Part shown: positions 13,251-45,266 of the stretch, piece after piece
Numbering within the stretch: the stretch's first letter is position 1
How the letters are laid out: every line of letters starts with the position of its first letter
Virus record (IMG/VR): IMGVR_UViG_3300036398_002804
Location: 1 to 50,180 of that record
Origin: a virus
Reading direction: 5' to 3' (one strand)
DNA: 50,180 nt
Position numbers and translations under genes: made by a program
The notes under the pieces: generated by a model
Seen by the model: only the letters and a program-made list of their open reading frames with translations
Told to the model about the DNA's origin: nothing
Databases searched by the model: none

Positions 13251-13436
13251 TTATAGTTATCCTTTCATAGATACTTTCTTTATACCCCCTAGTCTAGCAA
13301 GGGGGACTGACATTTTGGGGACTTTCCCCTAGTGTCGTAATGTGATTTGTCTCACTTACTTGCTACGCTCACCCTCTTGTTGAGGTTTATTTGGTAGGCT
13401 CATTGAGACTATCTTTCTTTATTTATTTATAGGAGA

Positions 13437-13478
13437 ATACTATCACACAATACCCCAAAAGTCAAGACGACACGCCGT
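13437..13478 (-). promoter_or_regulatory. Leftward early promoter with ACGGCGTGTCG box
   Basis: On the minus strand: ACGGCGTGTCG (13478-13468), two bases, TTGACT (13465-13460), 17 bases, TAGTAT (13442-13437) with TGA before it. The box recurs upstream of two rightward promoters. The leader of about 186 bases (13251-13436) contains a TGTGATTTGTCTCACT dyad at 13341-13356. Confidence 0.7.
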
Positions 13479-13525
13479 GAATGACATGCTTGTAATTAGT
13501 GATATACACCACACGACAAATGGTG

Positions 13526-13670
13526 CAAATCGGACATTGGGCTCGGGCCTTTTTTGAGTTATCCACAGGGTTTATCCACAGACACGCTCATACTGGTGAG
13601 TATACTGGTGAGTTATCCACAGACTAATGTGTTGCGGATCACATAAAAACCGTCTCATATACTGGTCAGT
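13526..13670. other. Candidate replication origin: DnaA boxes and iterons
   Basis: Three perfect DnaA boxes TTATCCACA (13559-13567, 13572-13580, 13613-13621) and three 12-bp repeats ATACTGGT(G/C)AGT (13590-13601, 13602-13613 in tandem, 13659-13670) lie in a 110-bp stretch between divergent operons. Further DnaA boxes lie at 14421-14429 and 15472-15480. The AT-rich 12720-12837 could be an unwinding element. Alternatively these are regulatory sites, as similar boxes occur in promoter modules. Confidence 0.5.
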
Positions 13671-13703
13671 AATAGCGAAAATGTCAGTGGTAGGTGTTAT
13701 AAT
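13628..13703 (+). promoter_or_regulatory. Rightward early promoter module A
   Basis: TGTGT-N6-TCACA (13628-13643), then GCGAAA (13675-13680), a 17-base spacer that begins ATGTCAG, and TATAAT (13698-13703). The -35 is poor, so it may need an activator bound at the dyad. It reads into a five-gene operon at 13754-14360. Confidence 0.6.
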
Positions 13704-13753
13704 TCTAGTATAAAGAAAATCAAGAAAGGTTCTTGATAAAGAAAGGAATTCAA

Positions 13754-13927
13754 ATGAATTCACTAAAAAATAAAGTGTGTAAGCATACACCTAATAAAAA
13801 TGCTATCTCTATCGTTCACGATGAGCGATTTACTTTCTGCGAGAATTGTGAAGAAAATATAACTTCACATCTTCGTGAGGATAATGACTTCATGTCATAC
13901 TGGACTTCATGGAAGGTAGGTAAATAA
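13754..13927 (+). CDS. Small zinc-ribbon-like protein, 57 aa
   Basis: AAAGAAAGGA sets the start at 13754. VCKHTPN and FTFCENCEENIT supply C, H and CxxC ligands. The end is polar and aromatic (FMSYWTSWKVGK). First gene of the rightward operon; its TAA touches the next ATG. Function unknown. Confidence 0.65.
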   Translation: MNSLKNKVCKHTPNKNAISIVHDERFTFCENCEENITSHLREDNDFMSYWTSWKVGK

Positions 13928-14035
13928 ATGATAACTAAAAAATGTATATCATGTAATGATACCGCTATGGTATCTAAAATTTCTATCCCTGCTATTTGCG
14001 ATAATTGTATCGCTAAGAATTGGAAGGTGTCGTAA
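13928..14035 (+). CDS. Zinc-ribbon microprotein, 35 aa
   Basis: CISCND near the start and ICDNCIAKNW near the end form two CxxC knuckles, a complete zinc ribbon. ATG follows the upstream stop directly and its own TAA overlaps the next ATG (TAATG). Confidence 0.65.
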   Translation: MITKKCISCNDTAMVSKISIPAICDNCIAKNWKVS

Positions 14036-14136
14036 TGAATACCATAACACTAAATTGTCGCTTGTGCGATAATAAAATTTCTAGTGAATTTTTTGATGAG
14101 CAGGACATAATTACCTGCTCTAATTGTTGGGAGTAA
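14035..14136 (+). CDS. Zinc-ribbon microprotein, 33 aa
   Basis: NCRLCDNKIS and ITCSNCWE give two CxxC pairs about 20 residues apart. It is a clear relative of the 30-aa protein at 14558 (KCSICD ... DVITCKECW). Coupled to the upstream gene by TAATG. Confidence 0.65.
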   Translation: MNTITLNCRLCDNKISSEFFDEQDIITCSNCWE

Positions 14137-14137
14137 A

Positions 14138-14260
14138 ATGCTTAACGAAATAAAAAATAAAATAATTCGTATTCAAGAATTGCGCCGCAGTAATGCGGCA
14201 ACACCAATTCCAAATAAAAAAAAATATACTAGAAAGGTAAAACATAAAAATGCAAAATGA
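14138..14260 (+). CDS. Basic small protein, 40 aa
   Basis: Starts one base after the upstream stop. A short helix (LNEIKNKIIRIQELRRSN) is followed by a lysine-rich tail (NKKKYTRKVKHKNAK), which suggests nucleic-acid binding. No family recognised. Confidence 0.55.
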   Translation: MLNEIKNKIIRIQELRRSNAATPIPNKKKYTRKVKHKNAK

Positions 14261-14360
14261 AAATATAACTAAGCAATTTGAAAATGCAGTTGACTTAACT
14301 AATTTAAGTGAATTAGATTTAGAAATTGTTAAACAAATTTTATTAGATAAATTTAACTAA
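14250..14360 (+). CDS. Acidic small protein, 36 aa
   Basis: GAAAGG lies 12-13 bases before ATG, inside the preceding gene. The peptide is helical and acidic (LTNLSELDLEIVKQILLDKF). Last gene of the operon. Confidence 0.5.
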   Translation: MQNENITKQFENAVDLTNLSELDLEIVKQILLDKFN

Positions 14361-14367
14361 TAAAAAA

Positions 14368-14396
14368 TTTTTGCAGAAATAAAAACTCTGCAAAAA
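14368..14396. repeat. Perfect 10-bp inverted repeat
   Basis: TTTTTGCAGA (14368-14377) and TCTGCAAAAA (14387-14396) around a 9-base loop. The U run follows the stem only when read on the minus strand, where no gene ends nearby. On the plus strand it is a stable 3' hairpin after the operon. Confidence 0.6.
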
Positions 14397-14399
14397 AAA

Positions 14400-14523
14400 C
14401 CCGAGGCGTTTTCCACAGGCTGTGGATAACTTACGATGTGTGGTTAAGATCACATAAAATCTTGTCCATATTTTGAGATTTACGGCGTGGCGATTTGATT
14501 TTGTGAGATTTTCCTGGTAAACT
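14400..14523 (+). promoter_or_regulatory. Rightward early promoter module B
   Basis: In order: CCCGAGGCGTTTTCCACAGG (14400-14419), an inverted DnaA box TGTGGATAA (14421-14429), TGTGG-N6-TCACA (14439-14454), ACGGCGTGGCG (14482-14492), TTGATT (14495-14500), 17 bases, TAAACT (14518-14523). Module D at 15451 repeats the same order. Confidence 0.65.
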
Positions 14524-14557
14524 TACGGAATAAGAAAACAAAAGAAAGGTGGTCAAA

Positions 14558-14650
14558 ATGACTACACTAAAATGCTCTATCTGCGATACACTTGTGATTA
14601 GCAACGTGTTTGAAATTGACGATGTAATTACTTGTAAGGAGTGTTGGTAA
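14558..14650 (+). CDS. Zinc-ribbon microprotein, 30 aa
   Basis: AAAGAAAGGTGG precedes ATG. KCSICD and TCKECW form two CxxC pairs. It is a paralogue of the gene at 14035, so a local duplication moved it under a separate promoter. Confidence 0.65.
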   Translation: MTTLKCSICDTLVISNVFEIDDVITCKECW

Positions 14651-14652
14651 AA

Positions 14653-14775
14653 ATGGGATATATTGAAATCTTTCGCCTTGATGAACAAGGTGCTGGGTGG
14701 GTTGATCTTTCTGAGGCTACCCCCGCAGAATTGCTAGACCTAGAAATAGGCTTATTTCAGGAAGGGGCTTTGTGA
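14653..14775 (+). CDS. Small acidic protein, 40 aa
   Basis: MGYIEIFRLDEQGAGWVDLS then EATPAELLDLEIGLF. It starts two bases after the upstream stop. A beta hairpin and a helix; no family. The stop lies inside the regulatory dyad of promoter module C. Confidence 0.55.
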   Translation: MGYIEIFRLDEQGAGWVDLSEATPAELLDLEIGLFQEGAL

Positions 14776-14836
14776 GATAAATCACAAGGCAACACACCCC
14801 TAGCAGGTTGAAAATGTCAGGGGTATTTGATAGGAT
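14771..14836 (+). promoter_or_regulatory. Rightward early promoter module C
   Basis: A perfect TGTGA-GATAAA-TCACA dyad (14771-14786), then TTGAAA (14808-14813), a 17-base spacer beginning ATGTCAG, and TAGGAT (14831-14836) with TGA before it. No DnaA box here. It drives the three genes at 14871-15399. Confidence 0.65.
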
Positions 14837-14870
14837 AGTCTTATCAAACAATAAAGAAAGGTGGTCAGAA

Positions 14871-15056
14871 ATGACTTACACTATAAAACTAGAAACCTTC
14901 AATGGTGCTGTAAAAAAAATCAACCTATCTACAAAAGGTCAGGTCGCAGATTTTATTAAACAATATCCAAACCAGTTGCCTGTTGGCGTATCTGTTAAAT
15001 TAGATTGCGACGCTTTAGGTATTCGTGGCACTCTTAGAGGAAAGGCGTTAGCATAA
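14871..15056 (+). CDS. Small unknown protein, 61 aa
   Basis: Start at 14871 follows AAAGAAAGGTGG (in-frame ATGs upstream lie inside the promoter). TYTIKLETFNGAVKKINLST is a beta hairpin, followed by a helix and GVSVKLDCDALGIRGTLRGK. Basic; function unknown. TAATG-coupled to the next gene. Confidence 0.6.
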   Translation: MTYTIKLETFNGAVKKINLSTKGQVADFIKQYPNQLPVGVSVKLDCDALGIRGTLRGKALA

Positions 15057-15187
15057 TGATAAATTCTGTAATGTCTTTTGATTGTAATGAGTGTAATGGT
15101 CAAGGTCTTATCTTTTGGGGTAATGATCTTGAATATGATGTAGAAAAATGCGATTGCAAAAACTTTGTGTTAGGAGATTTATTTTAA
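15056..15187 (+). CDS. Zinc-binding small protein, 43 aa
   Basis: FDCNECNGQGLIFWG and EKCDCKNFV have CxxC, GxG and CxC, like half of a DnaJ-type or FYDLN-type zinc knuckle. Coupled on both sides by TAATG. Confidence 0.6.
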   Translation: MINSVMSFDCNECNGQGLIFWGNDLEYDVEKCDCKNFVLGDLF

Positions 15188-15399
15188 TGATGACTAGAAA
15201 AGACTATGTAAAAACTGCAAACATTTTAAAAAGTTTTGTAGATGAAATTCCACAAACCACCTATGAGGATTTAGTTCAAGAGTTTGCAGATTGGTTTAAA
15301 TCTGATAACGAAAACTTTGACTTTGCAAGATTTGAAAAGGCTTGCGGAATTGATGAGATTGGTTTAATTCCTGTTGGCTCTGAAATGTTTAAAGTATAA
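15187..15399 (+). CDS. Conserved phage protein, 70 aa
   Basis: Start by TAATG overlap. MTRKDYVKTANILKSF near the start and FADWFKSDNENFDFARFEKACGI are a pattern well known in actinophage proteins (xxRKDYxxIAxxL ... FDRxRFxxACG). Function unknown. All-helical. Confidence 0.7.
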   Translation: MMTRKDYVKTANILKSFVDEIPQTTYEDLVQEFADWFKSDNENFDFARFEKACGIDEIGLIPVGSEMFKV

Positions 15400-15410
15400 A
15401 TAAAAATCCT

Positions 15411-15431
15411 GGACACGATATAAAACTGTCC
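15411..15431 (+). repeat. 3' hairpin of the TAAAAC family, copy 1
   Basis: GGACA / TGTCC arms around CGATATAAAAC, 11 bases after the stop at 15399. Shares AAAATCCTG before the stem and TAAAAC at the 3' side of the loop with copies at 17826, 19049 and 20232. Confidence 0.5.
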
Positions 15432-15450
15432 GAACATTTGTTCTAAAATC

Positions 15451-15568
15451 CCCGAGGCGTTTTCCACAGGTTTATCCACAGGCCTTTACGTGTGATTAAA
15501 AACACACCCCAGATTCCCCAGATCTTTACGGCGTGTCGTTTGAAAATGTCAGTCCAGTCTGATAAGAT
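15451..15568 (+). promoter_or_regulatory. Rightward early promoter module D
   Basis: CCCGAGGCGTTTTCCACAGG (15451-15470, identical to module B), DnaA box TTATCCACA (15472-15480), TGTGA-TTAAAA-ACACA (15491-15506), ACGGCGTGTCG (15528-15538), TTGAAA (15540-15545), 17 bases beginning ATGTCAG, TAAGAT (15563-15568). Confidence 0.65.
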
Positions 15569-15591
15569 AAAGATATAACGAAAGGAAAACT

Positions 15592-15723
15592 ATGAACGAT
15601 AACTATGATTTTGATCGCTATGATGATGAGGCACTTGATTACGCCCTAAGCAAAATTAGTGTTGGTGATTGCTATTGTAAGGCTATGGTGCTATGCTCGT
15701 ATTGTGCGAAAGGATACAGATAA
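15592..15723 (+). CDS. Small acidic cysteine protein, 43 aa
   Basis: CGAAAGGA precedes ATG. An acidic aromatic start (DNYDFDRYDDEALDYAL) is followed by GDCYCKAMVLCSYCAKGY, a probable zinc site with CxC and CxxC. First gene of a five-gene operon joined mostly by TAATG. Confidence 0.6.
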   Translation: MNDNYDFDRYDDEALDYALSKISVGDCYCKAMVLCSYCAKGYR

Positions 15724-15908
15724 TGGGTAAATTTAAAAACACACTAATGGAGATACTTTCTCATAATGATTGCTATGGTAAGGGTTGGCTATACTATGGC
15801 AATAATAAGGACTTTGATGTCTATGCTTGCGAGTGTAATTTGTATTCCGTGCCCGCAGATGAGATAATGGAATACCACCAACTATTTAACACTAAGGAGA
15901 ACGCATAA
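15723..15908 (+). CDS. Small unknown protein, 61 aa
   Basis: TAATG start at 15723. MEILSHNDCYGKGWLYYGNN and FDVYACECNLYSVP. Cysteines are not in a clear metal pattern. No family. Confidence 0.6.
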   Translation: MGKFKNTLMEILSHNDCYGKGWLYYGNNKDFDVYACECNLYSVPADEIMEYHQLFNTKENA

Positions 15909-16117
15909 TGGAATATAATTATTCACTTACTACTTCGTATGACGGAGAGTTAATTCATACCCTGCGAGTTAGCGATATGCTAGAAGCGGTTAATGCTTGG
16001 GATAAATGCGTGGACTATGGAACTGCTAAAGAATACGCAACCTATAATTTATCTGACTTAACAGGTAAAATGTATACTAAAACTTTTTACACTAATGGAG
16101 AGGTCGTAATTAAATAA
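15908..16117 (+). CDS. Small unknown protein, 69 aa
   Basis: TAATG-coupled at both ends. YSLTTSYDGELIHTLRVSDM and AVNAWDKCVDYGTAKEYATY suggest a beta hairpin, a helix and a second hairpin. Early actinophage operons often carry such proteins; function unknown. Confidence 0.65.
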   Translation: MEYNYSLTTSYDGELIHTLRVSDMLEAVNAWDKCVDYGTAKEYATYNLSDLTGKMYTKTFYTNGEVVIK

Positions 16118-16404
16118 TGGGAAGCATAACAGCAATAGGTCTAGCGGATACAACGCTAGACTTAGAAACTCAATTACTTTATCACTTAAAAGGTAATCAC
16201 TATCCACCAGTACCAGCAGAAATGGTTAAGCCTTGTATTGAAGCGATTGACGCATTCTATGATGAGGACTATCAACGCATGATTGAAATGCCTATGGTTG
16301 GCGACTTTCAGATTCTGTATCGTGGCATGACACATGCACCTGCTAGTGCTATCGTTGAACAACACCACCTTGAGTGGTTTATTGATCCAGTAGATGAGGA
16401 TTAA
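16117..16404 (+). CDS. Conserved phage protein, 95 aa
   Basis: TAATG start. TTLDLETQLLYHLKGNHYPP and EMVKPCIEAIDAFYDEDYQR, then a histidine-rich end (GMTHAPASAIVEQHHLEWF). The LxxHLxxNxYPPVP phrase is familiar from actinophages. Function unknown. Confidence 0.7.
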   Translation: MGSITAIGLADTTLDLETQLLYHLKGNHYPPVPAEMVKPCIEAIDAFYDEDYQRMIEMPMVGDFQILYRGMTHAPASAIVEQHHLEWFIDPVDED

Positions 16405-16406
16405 AA

Positions 16407-16631
16407 ATGTCTGCTACAATAAAAACTATGGACTACATGAAAGTTGATTTATTAACTTCAGGGCAATTAGAGGTTGATGATTTAATTTTGGTTGGTGATG
16501 AAGTTGTATCTATTGTTAATATAATTTCATTACCAGATGGATATACCCTTGAAATTATAAATGATTTTGGTGAAAGAGAAATTATTGAAGTTGAAGAGTA
16601 TCAACAATTTTATTTAATGATGTTAGAGTAG
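16407..16631 (+). CDS. Small beta-barrel-like protein, 74 aa
   Basis: Starts 2 bases after the previous stop. VDLLTSGQLEVDDLILVGDE and VVSIVNIISLPDGYTLEIIN resemble an SH3-like or translation-KOW-like fold (a DxIxVxGxVxxI pattern). Last gene of the operon. Function unknown. Confidence 0.65.
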   Translation: MSATIKTMDYMKVDLLTSGQLEVDDLILVGDEVVSIVNIISLPDGYTLEIINDFGEREIIEVEEYQQFYLMMLE

Positions 16632-16650
16632 GCGGGGGCCTCGGGGCAAT

Positions 16651-16716
16651 TTGTCCGTTTTGTACCAATTACGTAATTACGGGGTGTTTGATATTTTCCA
16701 GATTTTATGATATTAT
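16651..16716 (+). promoter_or_regulatory. Leaderless promoter with TGTCCG operator
   Basis: TTGTCCGTTTTGTACCAATT (16651-16670), then TTGATA (16688-16693), 17 bases, TATTAT (16711-16716) with TGA before it; ATG follows after exactly 6 bases. The operator recurs at 19099 (18 of 21 bases equal) and, as ATGTCCGATTTG, on the minus strand at 13526-13537. A GGGGGCCTCGGGG block precedes both plus-strand copies. Confidence 0.65.
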
Positions 16717-16722
16717 TTTTAT

Positions 16723-17442
16723 ATGACCCTAATAAGAAGCAAAGACAGGAAAGTAACCAATGCCGTATCCCCAAATGGAAAAACAGCAACAATTGCCAAC
16801 ACTTTTGGATTACCTAGTGGAAAAGCATATTCATGCCCTGGTGCCACTAGTGTTTGTGAAAGTGTTTGCTACGCAGGAAAACTAGAAAAGATATACAAAG
16901 GTGTACGCAATGTACTCCTAAACAATTGGGAACAATTAAAAGACGCTGATCAAACAACCATGACAGAGTTAATATCTGTAATGATTAATGAGTTTAGAAC
17001 AGATTGTGTTAAGCGTAATGCTAAATTGTTATTCCGCATTCACTGGGACGGTGATTTCTTTAACGATACCTACGCCAATGCCTGGAAAACTGTAATCAAT
17101 AATAATCCTGACATTCAGTTTTGGGTATACACTAGAGTAAAGAGTGCTGCTATCATCCTCAATAGTATTAGTAATCTTTCACTTTACTATTCCGCCGATA
17201 GTGAGAATATCAAAGAAGCCGTAGACTTAAAGTTAAATAACGGTATTCGTATGGCATACCTTGCAAAGAATTTTGCGGTAGGTCAAGAGCATATGAAAGA
17301 AATGATAGGCAAGGTAGGGGCTAAGTGTCCTGAGAATAAAAAGGCTATCCCACTTATCTCAACTAGTGGAAGCGCTTGCGTATCATGCAGTTTGTGTGTA
17401 TACTCTAAGAGCGACATCGTATTCTCGTCATCTAAAAAATAG
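16723..17442 (+). CDS. Gene 88-like phage protein, 239 aa
   Basis: Matches the GP88 family known from mycobacteriophages and others: an N-terminal SPNGKTATIANTFGLPSGKA, the cysteine cluster CPGATSVCESVCYAG (about 40-53), the FRIHWDGDFFN block (about 105-115), and a C-terminal CVSCSLC. The cysteines suggest an iron-sulfur or zinc site, and the FRxHxxGDF motif with the cluster recalls radical-SAM-like or nuclease cores, but the family's function is not known. Expressed from its own leaderless promoter. Confidence 0.85.
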   Translation: MTLIRSKDRKVTNAVSPNGKTATIANTFGLPSGKAYSCPGATSVCESVCYAGKLEKIYKGVRNVLLNNWEQLKDADQTTMTELISVMINEFRTDCVKRNAKLLFRIHWDGDFFNDTYANAWKTVINNNPDIQFWVYTRVKSAAIILNSISNLSLYYSADSENIKEAVDLKLNNGIRMAYLAKNFAVGQEHMKEMIGKVGAKCPENKKAIPLISTSGSACVSCSLCVYSKSDIVFSSSKK

Positions 17443-17451
17443 GGGTATCGC

Positions 17452-17517
17452 TTGGAAACCTTAATAATACTATCAATTATATTCGCCTATATATTCTTCG
17501 CAGGTATGGGGCATTAA
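17452..17517 (+). CDS. Hydrophobic microprotein, 21 aa
   Basis: TTG start with AGGGGT 5 bases upstream. METLIILSIIFAYIFFAGMG plus H is a single membrane helix. Short and non-ATG, so only moderately supported, but similar micro-membrane proteins occur at 12460 and 28769. Confidence 0.4.
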   Translation: METLIILSIIFAYIFFAGMGH

Positions 17518-17518
17518 G

Positions 17519-17593
17519 TGTGGGATAAATCACATCTCAAATAGTGAGATTTCCTAGAAATAACTTGTATTTTTAGGACAAAAATGTTAGACT
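17519..17593 (+). promoter_or_regulatory. Rightward early promoter module E
   Basis: TGTGG-GATAAA-TCACA (17519-17534), TTGTAT (17565-17570), 17 bases, TAGACT (17588-17593). The dyad core GATAAATCACA is identical to module C. Drives the gene at 17631. Confidence 0.6.
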
Positions 17594-17630: not shown

Positions 17631-17801
17631 ATGACAGTAGCAAACGCAACATACAAGGTAGGCGACACCTACACATCACAAAAATCAAAGGTAGTAGGAA
17701 CAATTACCGAAATTGTGCCAACTAACAAAAACACAGTTCGTGTTAAGTTAGATGTAAATGGCAACACACGCTGGACAACTTGGACAGCAAAGAACGCCTA
17801 A
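17631..17801 (+). CDS. Small SH3-like protein, 56 aa
   Basis: AAGGAG lies 7 bases before ATG. YKVGDTYTSQKSKVVGTITE, then NTVRVKLDVNGNTRWTTW. It is a paralogue of the 56-aa protein at 18398 (YQLGDLFTTSKTGITGRIVK ... TTRVSLQLANGARRLA). A five-strand barrel is likely; the function is unknown. Confidence 0.7.
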   Translation: MTVANATYKVGDTYTSQKSKVVGTITEIVPTNKNTVRVKLDVNGNTRWTTWTAKNA

Positions 17802-20774: not shown

Positions 20775-21013
20775 TGTGGACTAGATATGATTACTTATGT
20801 ACTAACTGTGATGCTTTAATTGAGGTTACCGCCAATGTTAAGCCTGCCCTGGATGCTGACTGTATCTGTGGCAATAGTGCCGTTATTAATATTGGAACTA
20901 CTCCAGCCCATAAACCAGGAAGTTGGGTCAAGTCAAAGAAACTTCAAAAGGTGACCAAAGTCACAAAGCCAGAAGTTGTAAAGATAGACACAAACCCCTA
21001 TACTTTATATTAA
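20774..21013 (+). CDS. FmdB-like zinc-ribbon protein, 79 aa
   Basis: RYDYLCTNCDALIEV and DADCICGNSAVIN form the two cysteine knuckles of an FmdB/CxxC zinc ribbon, followed by a basic tail with KVTKVTKPEVVK. The FmdB-like start MxxYxYxCxxC is shared with the gene at 43559. It may bind RNA or DNA (inference). Confidence 0.65.
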   Translation: MWTRYDYLCTNCDALIEVTANVKPALDADCICGNSAVINIGTTPAHKPGSWVKSKKLQKVTKVTKPEVVKIDTNPYTLY

Positions 21014-38032: not shown

Positions 38033-38457
38033 GTATTTTTTATTTCTGATTCATTTGGCAAAAACTTTTTTAGATCCTTGTAGGCAGTAGATATTTTTTT
38101 CATACTATCGTTTAAAGGATCTCCTTCTGTTATAGAACTAAAATTAAGGAAATAGTTAATAGTTGGATCAACCTCTTCAACAAATTTATTTAAACCATTT
38201 TGAACATCCTCAATATATGTAAAAGCCCAATCACGAGAGTCTGATAAAAATTTAATAAAGTTTTCTCTGTGTATATCATTATCAGTTAATTCTTGATTTG
38301 CTTTTATAGATTCAATGTGCTGGCTAAGTTTAAGATTTTCTAAAAATAATTGAGCGGAAGATATACTAAGACTTTTTAACTTAGATAATACTGCTAAGTA
38401 TGATATAGCAAATGAAATAGACAACAATGCAAAAAATATTAATAAACCATTTTGCAT
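38029..38457 (-). CDS. Membrane-anchored coiled-coil protein, 142 aa
   Basis: One membrane helix at 4-25 (GLLIFFALLSISFAISYLAV) followed by charged helices (QLFLENLKLSQHIESIKANQ). Layout resembles spanin-like or lysis-regulator proteins. TAATG-coupled to the endonuclease V gene. Function unknown. Confidence 0.6.
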   Translation of the reverse strand: MQNGLLIFFALLSISFAISYLAVLSKLKSLSISSAQLFLENLKLSQHIESIKANQELTDNDIHRENFIKFLSDSRDWAFTYIEDVQNGLNKFVEEVDPTINYFLNFSSITEGDPLNDSMKKISTAYKDLKKFLPNESEIKNT

Positions 38458-38951
38458 TACGCTACCCCCAATAATCTTTTATCAACATGCGTTGCCCAAT
38501 AGTATAAACATTTATCACAGCAAGGTCTATTATACTCGTTCTTAGTGTCTAAATAAAACTCAGCGTAGTAAATAGGATCTTTACGATATAGGTTAGCCCT
38601 ATGAGTGATATTTACACGGTTTATGTGAGATGGCTTATTCCAGACTGGCTTATTAGTACCCCAAATCTGCCCACAAACGGCCTCTAGAGCCTCTATATTG
38701 GCCTCATTCTTGTCTGTCTTAATACCCCTTACCTTAGCCTCTGTAATCATGGCTTTAGCATAAGTACGTAGTGAATATTCAGAGTTTTTCCACATCAATA
38801 CCGCTGGATGATTACGCCAAGCGCCTGAAGGAGATTGACCAGATAAAACCTTAAGTATCTGATAGGCTTCTAATATTTGTTTATTTAATCTTTTATTGTC
38901 TAATATTTTTGCACATTGGTCATAATCTTTATAAGGTAGAAAGGTTTGCAT
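38457..38951 (-). CDS. Pyrimidine-dimer DNA glycosylase (endonuclease V-like), 164 aa
   Basis: MQTFLPYKDYDQCAKILDNK, RLNKQILEAYQIL, HPAVLMWKNSEYSLRTYAKA, then TEAKVRGIKT are the Pyr_excise/DenV family motifs. It would nick DNA at UV-induced dimers, useful for a phage in sunlit water. The C terminus has a CCDKC cluster as in several actinobacterial members. TAATG with the next gene. Confidence 0.8.
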   Translation of the reverse strand: MQTFLPYKDYDQCAKILDNKRLNKQILEAYQILKVLSGQSPSGAWRNHPAVLMWKNSEYSLRTYAKAMITEAKVRGIKTDKNEANIEALEAVCGQIWGTNKPVWNKPSHINRVNITHRANLYRKDPIYYAEFYLDTKNEYNRPCCDKCLYYWATHVDKRLLGVA

Positions 38952-39181
38952 TATTTGATAGCCTCTCTAGTAATCATAACTATTGCTCCATTATCTTCTA
39001 AAGCCTTTTTTACTCTTACCATATATTCTATCGCTTGTCGCTTATCTGTGTCAAATAAACGCATAAACATAGCCTCATTGGCCTTAACTGTAATAAAATA
39101 TTCGTTGTCTATAATGTCTACCTTAAAATTTTTAGGGGATGGTATTGAATGAAAAGCCATTTTCATTTTATCTGTATACAT
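38951..39181 (-). CDS. Unknown phage protein, 76 aa
   Basis: Start at 39181 by TAATG overlap with the whiB stop. FHSIPSPKNFKVDIIDNEYF, ITVKANEAMFMRLFDTDKRQ, then a helix. A small alpha-beta protein between whiB and the UV endonuclease. Not recognised. Confidence 0.65.
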   Translation of the reverse strand: MYTDKMKMAFHSIPSPKNFKVDIIDNEYFITVKANEAMFMRLFDTDKRQAIEYMVRVKKALEDNGAIVMITREAIK

Positions 39182-39465
39182 TATTTTTCCATTGTTAATG
39201 ACTGCCAAGTAACTGACCAGTCTTGTTTAGTTTTGTGGTTGTTAAACTCTCTTGACACTTCTCCATTTTCTAAGTATACACCGCCCCAAACTCCCCACTC
39301 TTTTCCAGATATGCCTACAGCAAAACAAGTTTTGGCTACTGGACACATTTGGCACATAGAGTCAACTACTCCTCTACTATCAGGACTGTCTTCATATTTA
39401 TCAAAATAAATATTAGTTTCAAGTCCTAAACAAATAGCGTTATCTTTCCATAAATGCTGTTTCAT
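39181..39465 (-). CDS. whiB: WhiB-family transcription regulator, 94 aa
   Basis: Start at 39465 (an ATG 33 bases further up lies inside the preceding gene). Cysteines at C12, C38, C41, C47 (AIC, CQMCPVAKTC) bind a [4Fe-4S] cluster and GVWGG at 58-62 is the family turn. The typical acidic-aromatic spacing is present. WhiB proteins occur only in Actinobacteria and their phages, and act with the housekeeping sigma factor; this one is a candidate regulator of host or phage promoters. Strong marker for the host group. Confidence 0.92.
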   Translation of the reverse strand: MKQHLWKDNAICLGLETNIYFDKYEDSPDSRGVVDSMCQMCPVAKTCFAVGISGKEWGVWGGVYLENGEVSREFNNHKTKQDWSVTWQSLTMEK

Positions 39466-39467
39466 TT

Positions 39468-39677
39468 TTAATCTCGATACTTGTTTGGAATATCCCAACC
39501 ATTGCGACTAGGTGAATAAATTTTATGAACATACCATTTATCTTTTACCCTAATGCCTTTTGGGGATGTTTTTGCAATGTCTGATTCTTTTAAATCAATA
39601 ACATCCCATCCATTCCAAAGTAAATTATTATTTTTGGAAACAATTTTTTCCATAGTATTCAAACTTCTAATAAACAT
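39468..39677 (-). CDS. Conserved actinophage protein, 69 aa
   Basis: AGGGGGT before ATG. NNLLWNGWDVIDLKE, SPKGIRVKDKWYVHKIYSPS, RNGWDIPNKYRD is a known actinophage motif (LLWDGWDVV ... NGWDIPNK). Function unknown; often next to regulators. It lies just upstream of whiB. Confidence 0.75.
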   Translation of the reverse strand: MFIRSLNTMEKIVSKNNNLLWNGWDVIDLKESDIAKTSPKGIRVKDKWYVHKIYSPSRNGWDIPNKYRD

Positions 39678-42296: not shown

Positions 42297-42632
42297 TCAG
42301 GTTTTAGGGTGCAAGAGTCGTATAATTTCAAAAAGATTCCACCTATCTTTTTTAGATAAAGCCTCTACTGCTACCTTATCAAACGCTTTTTCAGACAAAG
42401 TAATAATTGGTTCTTCAGCAAAAAAATCTATTTCTAAAAATCTTTTTTCCCATAATTTCATAACACAAGAATTAACGTCTGTTATATGCTCATCGTATAG
42501 ATCTGGCATAAGATTTTTAATTTTAGGAGTAAAAGAATATAAAAGTTCTCCAGTTTCTTGATCAATTCCCACAGTTTCTAATCCGCCATTAAGAATAAGT
42601 TTTTCAATCATTTCTTCTTCTTCATTACTCAT
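42297..42632 (-). CDS. Conserved phage protein, 111 aa
   Basis: EEEEMIEKLILNGGLETVGI, DQETGELLYSFTPKIKNLMP, DLYDEHITDVNSCVMKLWEK: a common actinophage virion-associated protein of unknown function. Its start overlaps the thioredoxin stop by 8 bases. Confidence 0.75.
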   Translation of the reverse strand: MSNEEEEMIEKLILNGGLETVGIDQETGELLYSFTPKIKNLMPDLYDEHITDVNSCVMKLWEKRFLEIDFFAEEPIITLSEKAFDKVAVEALSKKDRWNLFEIIRLLHPKT

Positions 42633-42882
42633 TTTTAATAAACTCCAACAATGACTTTTTAGTTTGTAATCCAGTTATTCTATTAATTTCTTTGCCATCT
42701 GTAAGTAAAATAAATGTTGGTATAGAACGAATTTCAAAAGTTTTAGCCATTTCGTTTTCTATATCTACGTCAATTATTTGAAAAATACCAGGGAAGGACT
42801 CTCTGTTTAAATCTTCAACAATTGGTTTTACTTTTTTACAAGGCTGACACCAATCTGCCGTAAAGTAAAGTATTGACTTCAT
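42625..42882 (-). CDS. Thioredoxin, 85 aa
   Basis: FTADWCQPCKKVKPIVEDL has the WCxPC redox centre (residues 11-15) with an unusual CQPC, and RSIPTFILLTDGKE supplies the cis-Pro loop. Shorter than the usual 105 residues, as in many phages. It could reduce a phage ribonucleotide reductase or help virion protein folding. Overlaps the nuclease gene by 4 bases. Confidence 0.85.
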   Translation of the reverse strand: MKSILYFTADWCQPCKKVKPIVEDLNRESFPGIFQIIDVDIENEMAKTFEIRSIPTFILLTDGKEINRITGLQTKKSLLEFIKNE

Positions 42883-43286
42883 TTGCCAGACTTTAATCTA
42901 GCCTTTTTTAGTGCTTCAAAATCTTTTACTTTGGTATCTCCCATGTATCCCCAGGCATAGCCATCATTAATCATCTTATCGTTTAACGATTCTGTGTCGC
43001 CATTTATGTATATCCAACCAAGGATACGACCAAACTTTTCAGTTGAGTTTATTTTTTCAGTTTTAATAACAACAGACTTAGCATCTTTAAGATACTTTTT
43101 TAAATATTCTTTAGATTCAAGACCTAAAACTTTTTCAGCCTTATCTTTTGTGCGAGACTCTGGAGTATCAATACCAGCCAAACGCACACGAGATGCAAAC
43201 AAGATGTCAAACCCTAAATCAATAATAACGTCGATAGTGTCTCCATCAACAACATTGTTTACTTCTTTTACAAAATACTGATACAT
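42879..43286 (-). CDS. Thermonuclease-like (SNase) protein, 135 aa
   Basis: NNVVDGDTIDVIIDLGF, SRVRLAGIDTPESRTK, and KFGRILGWIYI include the catalytic Arg, Asp, Glu set (RxRLxGIDTPE, E downstream and Arg in GRxLG). TAATG with the upstream gene. Likely breaks host DNA or RNA. Confidence 0.85.
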   Translation of the reverse strand: MYQYFVKEVNNVVDGDTIDVIIDLGFDILFASRVRLAGIDTPESRTKDKAEKVLGLESKEYLKKYLKDAKSVVIKTEKINSTEKFGRILGWIYINGDTESLNDKMINDGYAWGYMGDTKVKDFEALKKARLKSGK

Positions 43287-43543
43287 TACACTGCCCCAAT
43301 CGCTCTATTTTCAACTAACTTTTCACGCTCATCAATAACCTCTAACATAAAAGACATCATCTTTGCATATGATTCAGGATTATTCATTATCTTATCGTAG
43401 TGATGACTACAAAACATTAACTCTCCAGAGGCCCCTTTAACTTTAACAAGTGCTTGCGCTTGGCATTTATCACAACGATCCTTTGCATCTAAAAACCATT
43501 GTTTTGGCTTTATGCTTGGATGATCTTTTAATATGTTTGTCAT
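43286..43543 (-). CDS. DUF7455-like zinc protein, 85 aa
   Basis: DRCDKCQAQALVKVKGASGE then LMFCSHHYDKI is the DUF7455 signature (DRCDxCgAqAxvxv ... FCxHH) of Actinobacteria and their phages. CxxC and CxHH bind zinc. Leaderless promoter: TATAAT 43555-43550, 6 bases from ATG. Confidence 0.8.
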   Translation of the reverse strand: MTNILKDHPSIKPKQWFLDAKDRCDKCQAQALVKVKGASGELMFCSHHYDKIMNNPESYAKMMSFMLEVIDEREKLVENRAIGAV

Positions 43544-43558
43544 AGTACTATTATATCC

Positions 43559-43732
43559 CTACTTTCTATTGTCTGTTGAATAAAATCCACTACCGTTGAA
43601 AATTGCAGCAGGAGCGCTCCAAAGTCTTTGCATAGATTGATTACAGCATACTGGATATCTTTCTTCATCAAATTTTTTTTCAAACTCAATTTGTGAAGAA
43701 CAAATAGAGCATTTATAATCATATCTTGGCAT
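43559..43732 (-). CDS. FmdB-family zinc-ribbon protein, 57 aa
   Basis: MPRYDYKCSICSSQIEFEKK, PVCCNQSMQRLWSAPAAIFN, GSGFYSTD is the full FmdB pattern (CxxC, C, then SAPAxxFxGSGFYxTD). The second knuckle reads PVCCN instead of CPxC, so one ligand is shifted. GGAG precedes ATG. Putative small regulator. Confidence 0.8.
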   Translation of the reverse strand: MPRYDYKCSICSSQIEFEKKFDEERYPVCCNQSMQRLWSAPAAIFNGSGFYSTDNRK

Positions 43733-43847
43733 AAACTCTCCTATAGGTTATATCTAAGTATATCAAAAGATGAGCAGTTTTGCAACTTGCTCAGGTTGTT
43801 TATCTACCGATAAGACTAATAAAAATGTCGAATTACATTAGATAAAA

Positions 43848-44264
43848 TTATTTGATCTTAATGACCTTTGGTTTTTTTTCTTCAGGAACAATGCGAACAA
43901 TGCTAACTGTAAGCATACCGTCCTTTAAGTCAGCACTAGAGACTTCCATGTATTCACCAAGAGCAAATGTGCGGGTAAATTTACGACCAGCAATTCCTTT
44001 GTGAACAACTTCAGCATCTGTAACCTCAACAATTTCACCTTTAATAATTAAGGTTCCATCATCTACTGATACATTGATGTTTTCTTTTGAAAATCCAGCA
44101 ACTGCAACAGATAGTCTATATGTATCTTCATCTAGTTTAAGAAGATCATATGGAGGATATGATTGTGAATTTACTTTATGTGCTGTATTTAAACGACCCA
44201 ACTCTCTGTTGAATCCAATAAAAAAAGGATCATTGAAAAGATCCATAGCGAACTGTGTTACCAT
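43848..44264 (-). CDS. Hsp20 small heat-shock protein, 138 aa
   Basis: The alpha-crystallin core spans about 35-130: YPPYDLLKLDEDTYRLSVAV, AGFSKENINVSVDDGTLIIK, GEI, KFTRTFALGEYMEVSSADLK and GMLTVSIVRIVPEEKKPKVI. N-terminal FFIGFNRELGRLN is typical of IbpA type. It holds unfolding proteins, perhaps virion parts. AAAGGGG precedes ATG and a strong promoter lies at 44322-44350. 43740-43847 shows no gene. Confidence 0.9.
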   Translation of the reverse strand: MVTQFAMDLFNDPFFIGFNRELGRLNTAHKVNSQSYPPYDLLKLDEDTYRLSVAVAGFSKENINVSVDDGTLIIKGEIVEVTDAEVVHKGIAGRKFTRTFALGEYMEVSSADLKDGMLTVSIVRIVPEEKKPKVIKIK

Positions 44265-44321
44265 TTTATTCCCCTTTCAAGCGAATAAGTTAATGTATCC
44301 CCATTTGGCAGATACGATATT

Positions 44322-44350
44322 ATTATATCAGATTAATAAAATATAGTAAA
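44322..44350 (-). promoter_or_regulatory. Hsp20 promoter TTTACT-17-TATAAT
   Basis: Minus strand: TTTACT (44350-44345), 17 bases, TGA-TATAAT (44327-44322). A leader of about 50 bases precedes the gene, in contrast with the leaderless promoters elsewhere. Confidence 0.7.
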
Positions 44351-44354
44351 GTTA

Positions 44355-45158
44355 TTATATTTTTTGCAAAATATTATTAAAAAAAGGATTAATTGGAGAT
44401 TTATTTCCTGCAATTAATTTTTCTATTTCACCACATATTACTGCATATTCCTCATTAAAAACTTCCATAGTTCTTCCTTCACCCATACGTGCAGGCTTTC
44501 CTTCTAATATTAATGTCTCTTTAAGGGTTTTTTCTATATCATAATTTAGCGTTGTACATGTAAAATGTTTTACAACATATCCATCTTTATCTACTAAATA
44601 TTTTTCATAGTTTCCGCCCATCTTGGCGCCCATATAAAATCCTTTATTTAGCCAAGGAGATAAGTAACCACCTTCTGGAATTTCTTCTTTAATAGTATCT
44701 TTTATTTTACATAATAACATCATTTGATTTGAAATTTCTTTATATAGTTCGTGAGGCTCTCCATGTGGTTGTCCTAAACCGTTTACGTTTTCATTTTCTT
44801 TGTATTCGCTTAATTGATTTACAAGTTTATTAGGATTTGATGAAACCATTTCTGAAAATTTAAATGTAGTTCCGTAAACTTCTTCTCCATATTTTTTTGA
44901 GTCTGCACCACAAGTAATTCCTTGTGACCATTTTCCTTTAGTAACTCCTGGCCCACAGTAATCATTTGTTGGAACAGCAATTACTTCAAAACCTTGATCT
45001 TGATATTTTTCTTGTAGCCACTGCAATACTTCCATCTGATTAGCATTTCCGCAACCAACGGTTGTGTTGACAACAAGAGTTACCTTGTTTTTGTACTGTT
45101 CTAAATGGTTTGGTGTGCCCTCTGCAGAATTTAATGGTATTTCGTATAAAGATTTCAT
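44355..45158 (-). CDS. Extended glutathione-peroxidase-like protein, 267 aa
   Basis: Start at 45158: TGA-TATAAT (45171-45166) lies 7 bases upstream (leaderless). LYEIPLNSAEGTPNHLEQYK, VTLVVNTTVGCGNANQMEVL gives the peroxidatic Cys in the family position, followed by GFEVIAVPTNDYCGPG (Q and N of the active site are partly changed). YLVDKDGYVVKHF near the end is the family's C-terminal strand. About 100 residues longer than usual, with an insert near 90-170. It would reduce peroxides, possibly with thioredoxin at 42625. Confidence 0.8.
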   Translation of the reverse strand: MKSLYEIPLNSAEGTPNHLEQYKNKVTLVVNTTVGCGNANQMEVLQWLQEKYQDQGFEVIAVPTNDYCGPGVTKGKWSQGITCGADSKKYGEEVYGTTFKFSEMVSSNPNKLVNQLSEYKENENVNGLGQPHGEPHELYKEISNQMMLLCKIKDTIKEEIPEGGYLSPWLNKGFYMGAKMGGNYEKYLVDKDGYVVKHFTCTTLNYDIEKTLKETLILEGKPARMGEGRTMEVFNEEYAVICGEIEKLIAGNKSPINPFFNNILQKI

Positions 45159-45194
45159 GTAATTAATTATATCATGTTTTAATATTAATTTTAG

Positions 45195-45266
45195 TACCCC
45201 CAAGGGGAATTGAACCCCTGTTACCACCGTGAAAGGGTGATGTCCTAACCACTAGACGATGAGGGC
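45195..45266 (-). tRNA. tRNA-Glu (TTC)
   Basis: Read on the minus strand: acceptor GCCCTCA with TGGGGGT (two G-U pairs), D arm GTCTAGTGGTTAGGAC, anticodon loop CTTTCAC carrying TTC, T arm AGGGG-TTCAATT-CCCCT. No CCA encoded. Separated by 4 bases from the next tRNA. Confidence 0.92.

Follow-up and report, generated by a model that had tools for sequence, protein, structure and literature searches.

At class I promoters of Escherichia coli, the activator CRP contacts the C-terminal domain of the alpha subunit of RNA polymerase. The dyad in these promoters (e.g., lac, centre -61.5) precedes the -35 in whole-turn steps and shares the helix face of the polymerase; the definition of the class was taken from PMC2859248. 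For the closest known systems, the GlxR regulon of Corynebacterium glutamicum and the Mycobacterium tuberculosis CRP (Rv3676), the operator consensus is TGTGANNTANNTCACA (PMC4254451). Host CRP can also act directly on phage promoters, as in E. coli, where the complex of cyclic AMP (cAMP) and CRP inhibits the pir, dam and recE promoters of phage T1 (PMC6737242). Here we describe CRP-type dyads (TGTGA-N6-TCACA) that stand at whole helical turns from promoters in the early region of an actinophage, the IMG/VR virus record IMGVR_UViG_3300036398_002804 (50,180 bases; hereafter the window), and in its relatives.

The arrangement resembles the systems above and departs from each of them. In contrast to the GlxR and Rv3676 sites, those described here are part of phage genomes and serve genes of the phages, and the candidate host order has few sites of its own. 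In comparison with E. coli class I promoters, the estimated dyad centres are further upstream, the spacer carries a conserved TGTCAG, the -10 is extended, and many different steps occur within one promoter family. Unlike in phage T1, the geometry points to activation, there are many promoters, and the phages are actinophages. Among described phages, GP88 or DUF932 genes at 50–54% identity are shared by cluster A mycobacteriophages and Stanwilliamsviridae Streptomyces phages. In the early-region samples taken from these groups, 30 kb of Bmoc and 26 kb of KingCyrus, TGTG-N8-CACA was absent. The early region of the window had no megablast match among known phages. Class I CRP activation is already known; what appears to be new is its predicted use as the shared early promoter design of a phage family. 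In the literature searched, which took in few subscription journals, we found no phage-wide class I CRP programme described.

A GlxR-Type Dyad Is Abundant in the Phage Family

Exactly five copies of TGTG-N8-CACA were identified in the window, all of them between 13628 and 17534 in the early region, compared to a mean of 0.75 in shuffled sequences, none of which reached five (0/100). When up to one mismatch to TGTGA-N6-TCACA was allowed there were seven sites against 2.08 expected, and no shuffle gave seven. These seven were the six sites listed in a first-pass annotation of this DNA, each at the position it had given, plus one at 20950 that had no promoter call.

The same annotation had set beforehand, as the test that could refute it, a motif search in related phages, and in these the motif proved to be present, ordered and phased. 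The relatives were 80 viral loci (1.10 Mb, most records being fragments) gathered with the GP88 protein. TGTG-N8-CACA occurred 621 times in these loci, while most other spacings of these arms gave 4–26 matches and control dyads 7–44. The N10 spacing gave 76 matches, many of which were the same N8 sites read via TGTGTGA or TCACACA overlaps. Whole records of 32 relatives had 4–13 dyads apiece, mostly near GP88, and in one 114-kb record all 11 dyads were inside a 17-kb stretch. The consensus of 383 non-redundant sites, in which the inner bases had been left free in the search, was TGTGATnTAnATCACA. This is the published GlxR operator consensus (PMC4254451) and it also agrees with the CRP consensus that PMC2859248 quotes for E. 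coli.

Dyads Are Helically Phased with Their Promoters

Promoters were located with a model learned beside the dyads by expectation-maximisation, in which TTGAA(A/T)(T/A)TGTCAG precedes an extended -10 (TGnTAnnnT) and the spacer is 17 nt long. Offsets are the distances in bases between the first base past the dyad and the first base of the -10. For 394 distinct promoters, the offset of the nearest dyad fell at 32–35 (24 promoters), 43–45 (130), 53–56 (90) or 63–66 (81) in a total of 325 cases. To handle kinship, every combination of downstream-gene cluster and offset was counted once, which left 147 pairs, of which the 137 within 28–90 bp were tested. Among periods of 8 to 14 bp, the one that fitted best was 10.50 bp (R = 0.64, p ~ 8e-25), and jittered and uniform controls gave R values of 0.30 or less. 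The first-pass claim that the spacings were close to whole turns thus extends from the window, where all seven modules fell inside the phased bins, to the relatives.

Comparison of orthologous promoters indicated that the phase is kept while the position of the dyad shifts by whole turns. Upstream of the gene behind site C the dyad was at 44 or 54 in relatives, and upstream of the gene behind site E it was at 34, 43, 52–54 or 63–65. Phasing also depended on the quality of the dyad: the share of promoters in phased bins was 82% for dyads with 0–1 mismatches, 69% for two and 22% for three, with 21% expected by chance, in a test that located promoters by TGTCAG and the -10 part alone but was not wholly blind, as the profile had been trained on dyad-linked promoters. 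Hold-out loci, which were gathered later via the DUF932 protein and were outside the training set, were phased in 39 of 44 cases. An off-phase peak at 49–50 was largely explained by a second dyad, which abutted the first exactly 16 bp upstream, in phase at 65–66, in 28 of 32 cases, compared to 6 of 439 elsewhere. As in CRP/GlxR class I promoters, the element is a 16-bp TGTGA-N6-TCACA dyad with GlxR-type inner bases, whose distances upstream of the -35 are helically equivalent.

Promoter Modules in the Window

The window modules (Table 1) were called with the promoter model, trained mainly on relatives. With the dyad-to-(-35) distance taken as the offset minus 23, the model returned 31, 40, 21, 33 and 30 bases for sites A to E, an exact match to the distances of the first-pass annotation, which was also correct in describing C as a perfect dyad. 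The site at 13498 is an addition to its list. With two leftward modules and one rightward module within 13290–13703, the leader is a divergent hub.

Table 1. Promoter modules and selected genes of the window.
Feature	Position	Strand	Dyad sequence	Offset	-35	-10	Remarks
Leftward module	13341..13356	-	AGTGAGACAAATCACA (minus strand)	44	CCCAAA 13319-13314	TAGACT 13296-13291	1 mismatch; TGTCAG spacer element
Second leftward module	13498..13513	-	TGTGGTGTATATCACT (minus strand)	55	TTGACT 13465-13460	TAGTAT 13442-13437	2 mismatches; extended -10
Module A	13628..13643	+	TGTGTTGCGGATCACA	54	GCGAAA 13675-13680	TATAAT 13698-13703	
Module B	14439..14454	+	TGTGGTTAAGATCACA	63	TTGATT 14495-14500	TAAACT 14518-14523	
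Module C	14771..14786	+	TGTGAGATAAATCACA	44	TTGAAA 14808-14813	TAGGAT 14831-14836	Perfect dyad
First gene behind module C	14871..15056	+					MTYTIKLETF...
Module D	15491..15506	+	TGTGATTAAAAACACA	56	TTGAAA 15540-15545	TAAGAT 15563-15568	
GP88 (PF17338) gene	16723..17442	+					Marker for finding related loci
Module E	17519..17534	+	TGTGGGATAAATCACA	53	TTGTAT 17565-17570	TAGACT 17588-17593	
First gene behind module E	17631..17801	+					MTVANATYKV...
WhiB-like gene	39181..39498	-					No other transcription regulator was recognised in the window

The -35 boxes had been described as poor in the first-pass annotation, which is only partly borne out. Module A and the leftward module at 13341 do have poor boxes, and exact TTGACA was rarer in dyad promoters (6 of 323) than in dyad-less ones (15 of 204; Fisher p = 0.002). 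However, the boxes of modules B to E begin with TTG, and, averaged over the family, dyad promoters matched the -35 no worse than dyad-less ones did. We therefore rejected the idea that dyad-less promoters generally have a better -35, as it is backed by the exact TTGACA fraction and the mean match does not agree.

Several other elements accompany the modules. The TGTCAG directly after the -35 (window 13682, 14815, 15547 and 13312(-)) was also present at dyad-less promoters and may be the site of a second regulator. An GGCGTGTCG-like element, or its complement GACACGC, was found just 5' of the -35 in many promoters of the family (window 13468–13476 (-), 14484–14492 and 15530–15538). Perfect DnaA-box-like TTATCCACA sequences at 13559, 13572, 13613, 14421(-) and 15472 were clustered beside modules A, B and D, possibly reflecting a replication origin or shared regulation. 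The near-palindromes TACTGGTGAGTA and TACTGGTCAGTA were repeated around module A (13590–13665) and recurred in some relatives. A promoter-like site of the DUF932 gene (19173) contains a perfect TTGACA but no dyad; the orthologous promoter in relatives bears phased dyads. Host-like genes were identified at 42625–45227 (-) and 38457–38951 (-), namely those for thioredoxin, SNase, HSP20, a glutathione peroxidase-like protein and a pyrimidine dimer DNA glycosylase, the last of which adjoins the WhiB gene.

The Arrangement in Other Phages

When IMG/VR was scanned for dyads placed roughly two turns away from a TTGA/TAnAAT promoter, 69 stretches were identified, most from the same kind of phage. A phage group of 43–44% G+C also had the arrangement, with 13 promoters whose dyads were all at 33 or 43. 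In a phage of 49% G+C (71-kb record IMGVR_UViG_3300025131_000024) there were ten perfect TGTGA-N6-TCACA dyads before TTGACA promoters. These were mostly TGTGAA...TTCACA, a slightly different inner sequence, and their offsets were less tight (35, 41, 41, 45, 45 and 54), possibly representing an independent use of CRP-type sites.

Candidate Readers of the Dyad

As to what reads the dyads, the first-pass annotation had left the choice between a host CRP-family protein and a phage regulator, and had proposed a search for a phage CRP/FNR or helix-turn-helix (HTH) gene. No CRP-family gene was found in that search. A Pfam scan of 60 window proteins identified no CRP-family gene and no HTH regulator beyond WhiB, and PF00325 gave nothing above the cut-off in the window and 17 relatives. 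PF13545 and PF00027 had no match in 32 relative records, most of them fragments, while they matched 14 and 10, respectively, of 14 control genomes. A small HTH protein of some relatives was rejected as the reader, as its match to the Crp profile was sub-threshold with 14 positions matched, and it was absent from the window. With no phage CRP/FNR gene recovered from the window or these relatives, a host CRP is the favoured and simplest reader.

WhiB was present in the window and 17 of 22 relatives, and among control genomes it matched C. glutamicum only. This distribution indicated that the host is most likely an actinobacterium; the phage group is a large, widespread lake-water family of actinophages. 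A candidate host order was chosen via a metagenome-assembled genome (MAG) that holds a phage contig, and 81 of its genomes were analysed; their sizes of about 1.1–2.2 Mb point tentatively to Nanopelagicales. A CRP above the family cut-off was identified in 74 of the 81. A representative of these, whose gene adjoins an endonuclease III-like gene, was a close relative of the M. tuberculosis CRP (PDB 3d0s; E value 4e-77) with an identical SRETVNKALADFA recognition-helix stretch. The PF13545 match obtained in the Actinomycetota MAG was to a GntR-type protein and not to CRP. No convincing CRP autoregulation site was found upstream of candidate-host crp genes in 30 loci.

Interpretation and Alternative Explanations

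From the computed dyad, its consensus, its repetition in the phage family, its link to promoters and its phasing, we infer that the dyads are probably operators of a CRP/GlxR-type activator of class I, likely the host's own orthologue, which would switch on genes of the early region. Bound as a dimer to the predicted operator, upstream of the -35 and facing the same side of the helix as RNA polymerase, the activator would recruit the polymerase through a class I contact, so that a set of early-region genes would be turned on together. The reader would be the CRP/GlxR orthologue of the actinobacterial host, already there at infection. The early status that the first-pass annotation gave these promoters is partly supported, their early timing being presumed.

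Several observations weigh against this interpretation. The dyad centres are estimated, assuming a transcript start 7 nt after the -10, at about -54, -64, -74 and -84, which is 2–3 bp upstream of the E. coli series. A phage-encoded reader could have escaped the searches, as most relative records are fragments. Below the level of the phylum, the host assignment is tentative: contigs related by GP88 were present in three MAGs of different phyla (a cyanobacterium, Phycisphaerae and Actinomycetota), for which reason host assignment via MAG binning was set aside as weak evidence. Within the candidate order the perfect dyad was rare (14 in 81 genomes), TGTG-N8-CACA was at about the control level, and one 1.15-Mb genome had no intergenic dyad with 0–1 mismatches. 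In addition, the class III cyclase (PF00211) was not found in 21 genomes of the order, in a search limited to that cyclase class. The few dyads and the failure to find a class III cyclase suggest either that the real host is another actinobacterium or that the CRP of the candidate order has few strong sites of its own and may work without cAMP.

The excess of near-consensus dyads in the phages over the chance level in candidate host genomes would also be expected if the dyads were read by a dimeric DNA-binding protein that the phage itself encodes and that does not belong to the CRP/FNR family, acting with class I geometry on delayed-early genes and resembling CRP by convergence, and most phage proteins indeed have no family match. 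We consider this rather unlikely, because the inner consensus agrees with that of GlxR/CRP base by base, including at positions not imposed by the search, because the dyad is common to unlike phage groups with other promoter details, and because no HTH regulator other than WhiB was recognised in the window. Whole-turn phasing fits DNA looping too, and dyads that are close together, some of them abutting doubles, might be sites of a repressor or looping protein that silences the promoters, with the phasing serving the loop. However, the sites stand clear of the core promoter, upstream of the -35; the phase is kept by single dyads that have one promoter, such that a partner site is not needed; and GlxR is mostly an activator (PMC4254451). 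Together these points make silencing very improbable. The relatives are homologous and their sites accordingly not independent, but chance or shared descent with unconstrained spacing is, for practical purposes, refuted by the shuffles, the arm-spacing controls, the whole-turn hopping between orthologues, the chance-level phasing of 3-mismatch dyads, the phased hold-out loci and the abutting dyads that explain the exceptions.

On the interpretation that a host CRP reads the dyads, we speculate that most near-consensus CRP targets in the infected cell could belong to the phage early programme, with a streamlined host that hardly uses such sites and lacks a class III cyclase, and a CRP that works independently of cAMP or with a ligand provided in some other way, although this extension is unlikely. 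The dyad-promoter arrangement represents a natural spacing experiment, in which the activator site has been shifted almost solely by whole helix turns across hundreds of related promoters. If the host CRP does read these dyads, the arrangement provides a sequence signature for finding such phages, and a widespread group of lake phages ties its early genes to the global regulator of its host.

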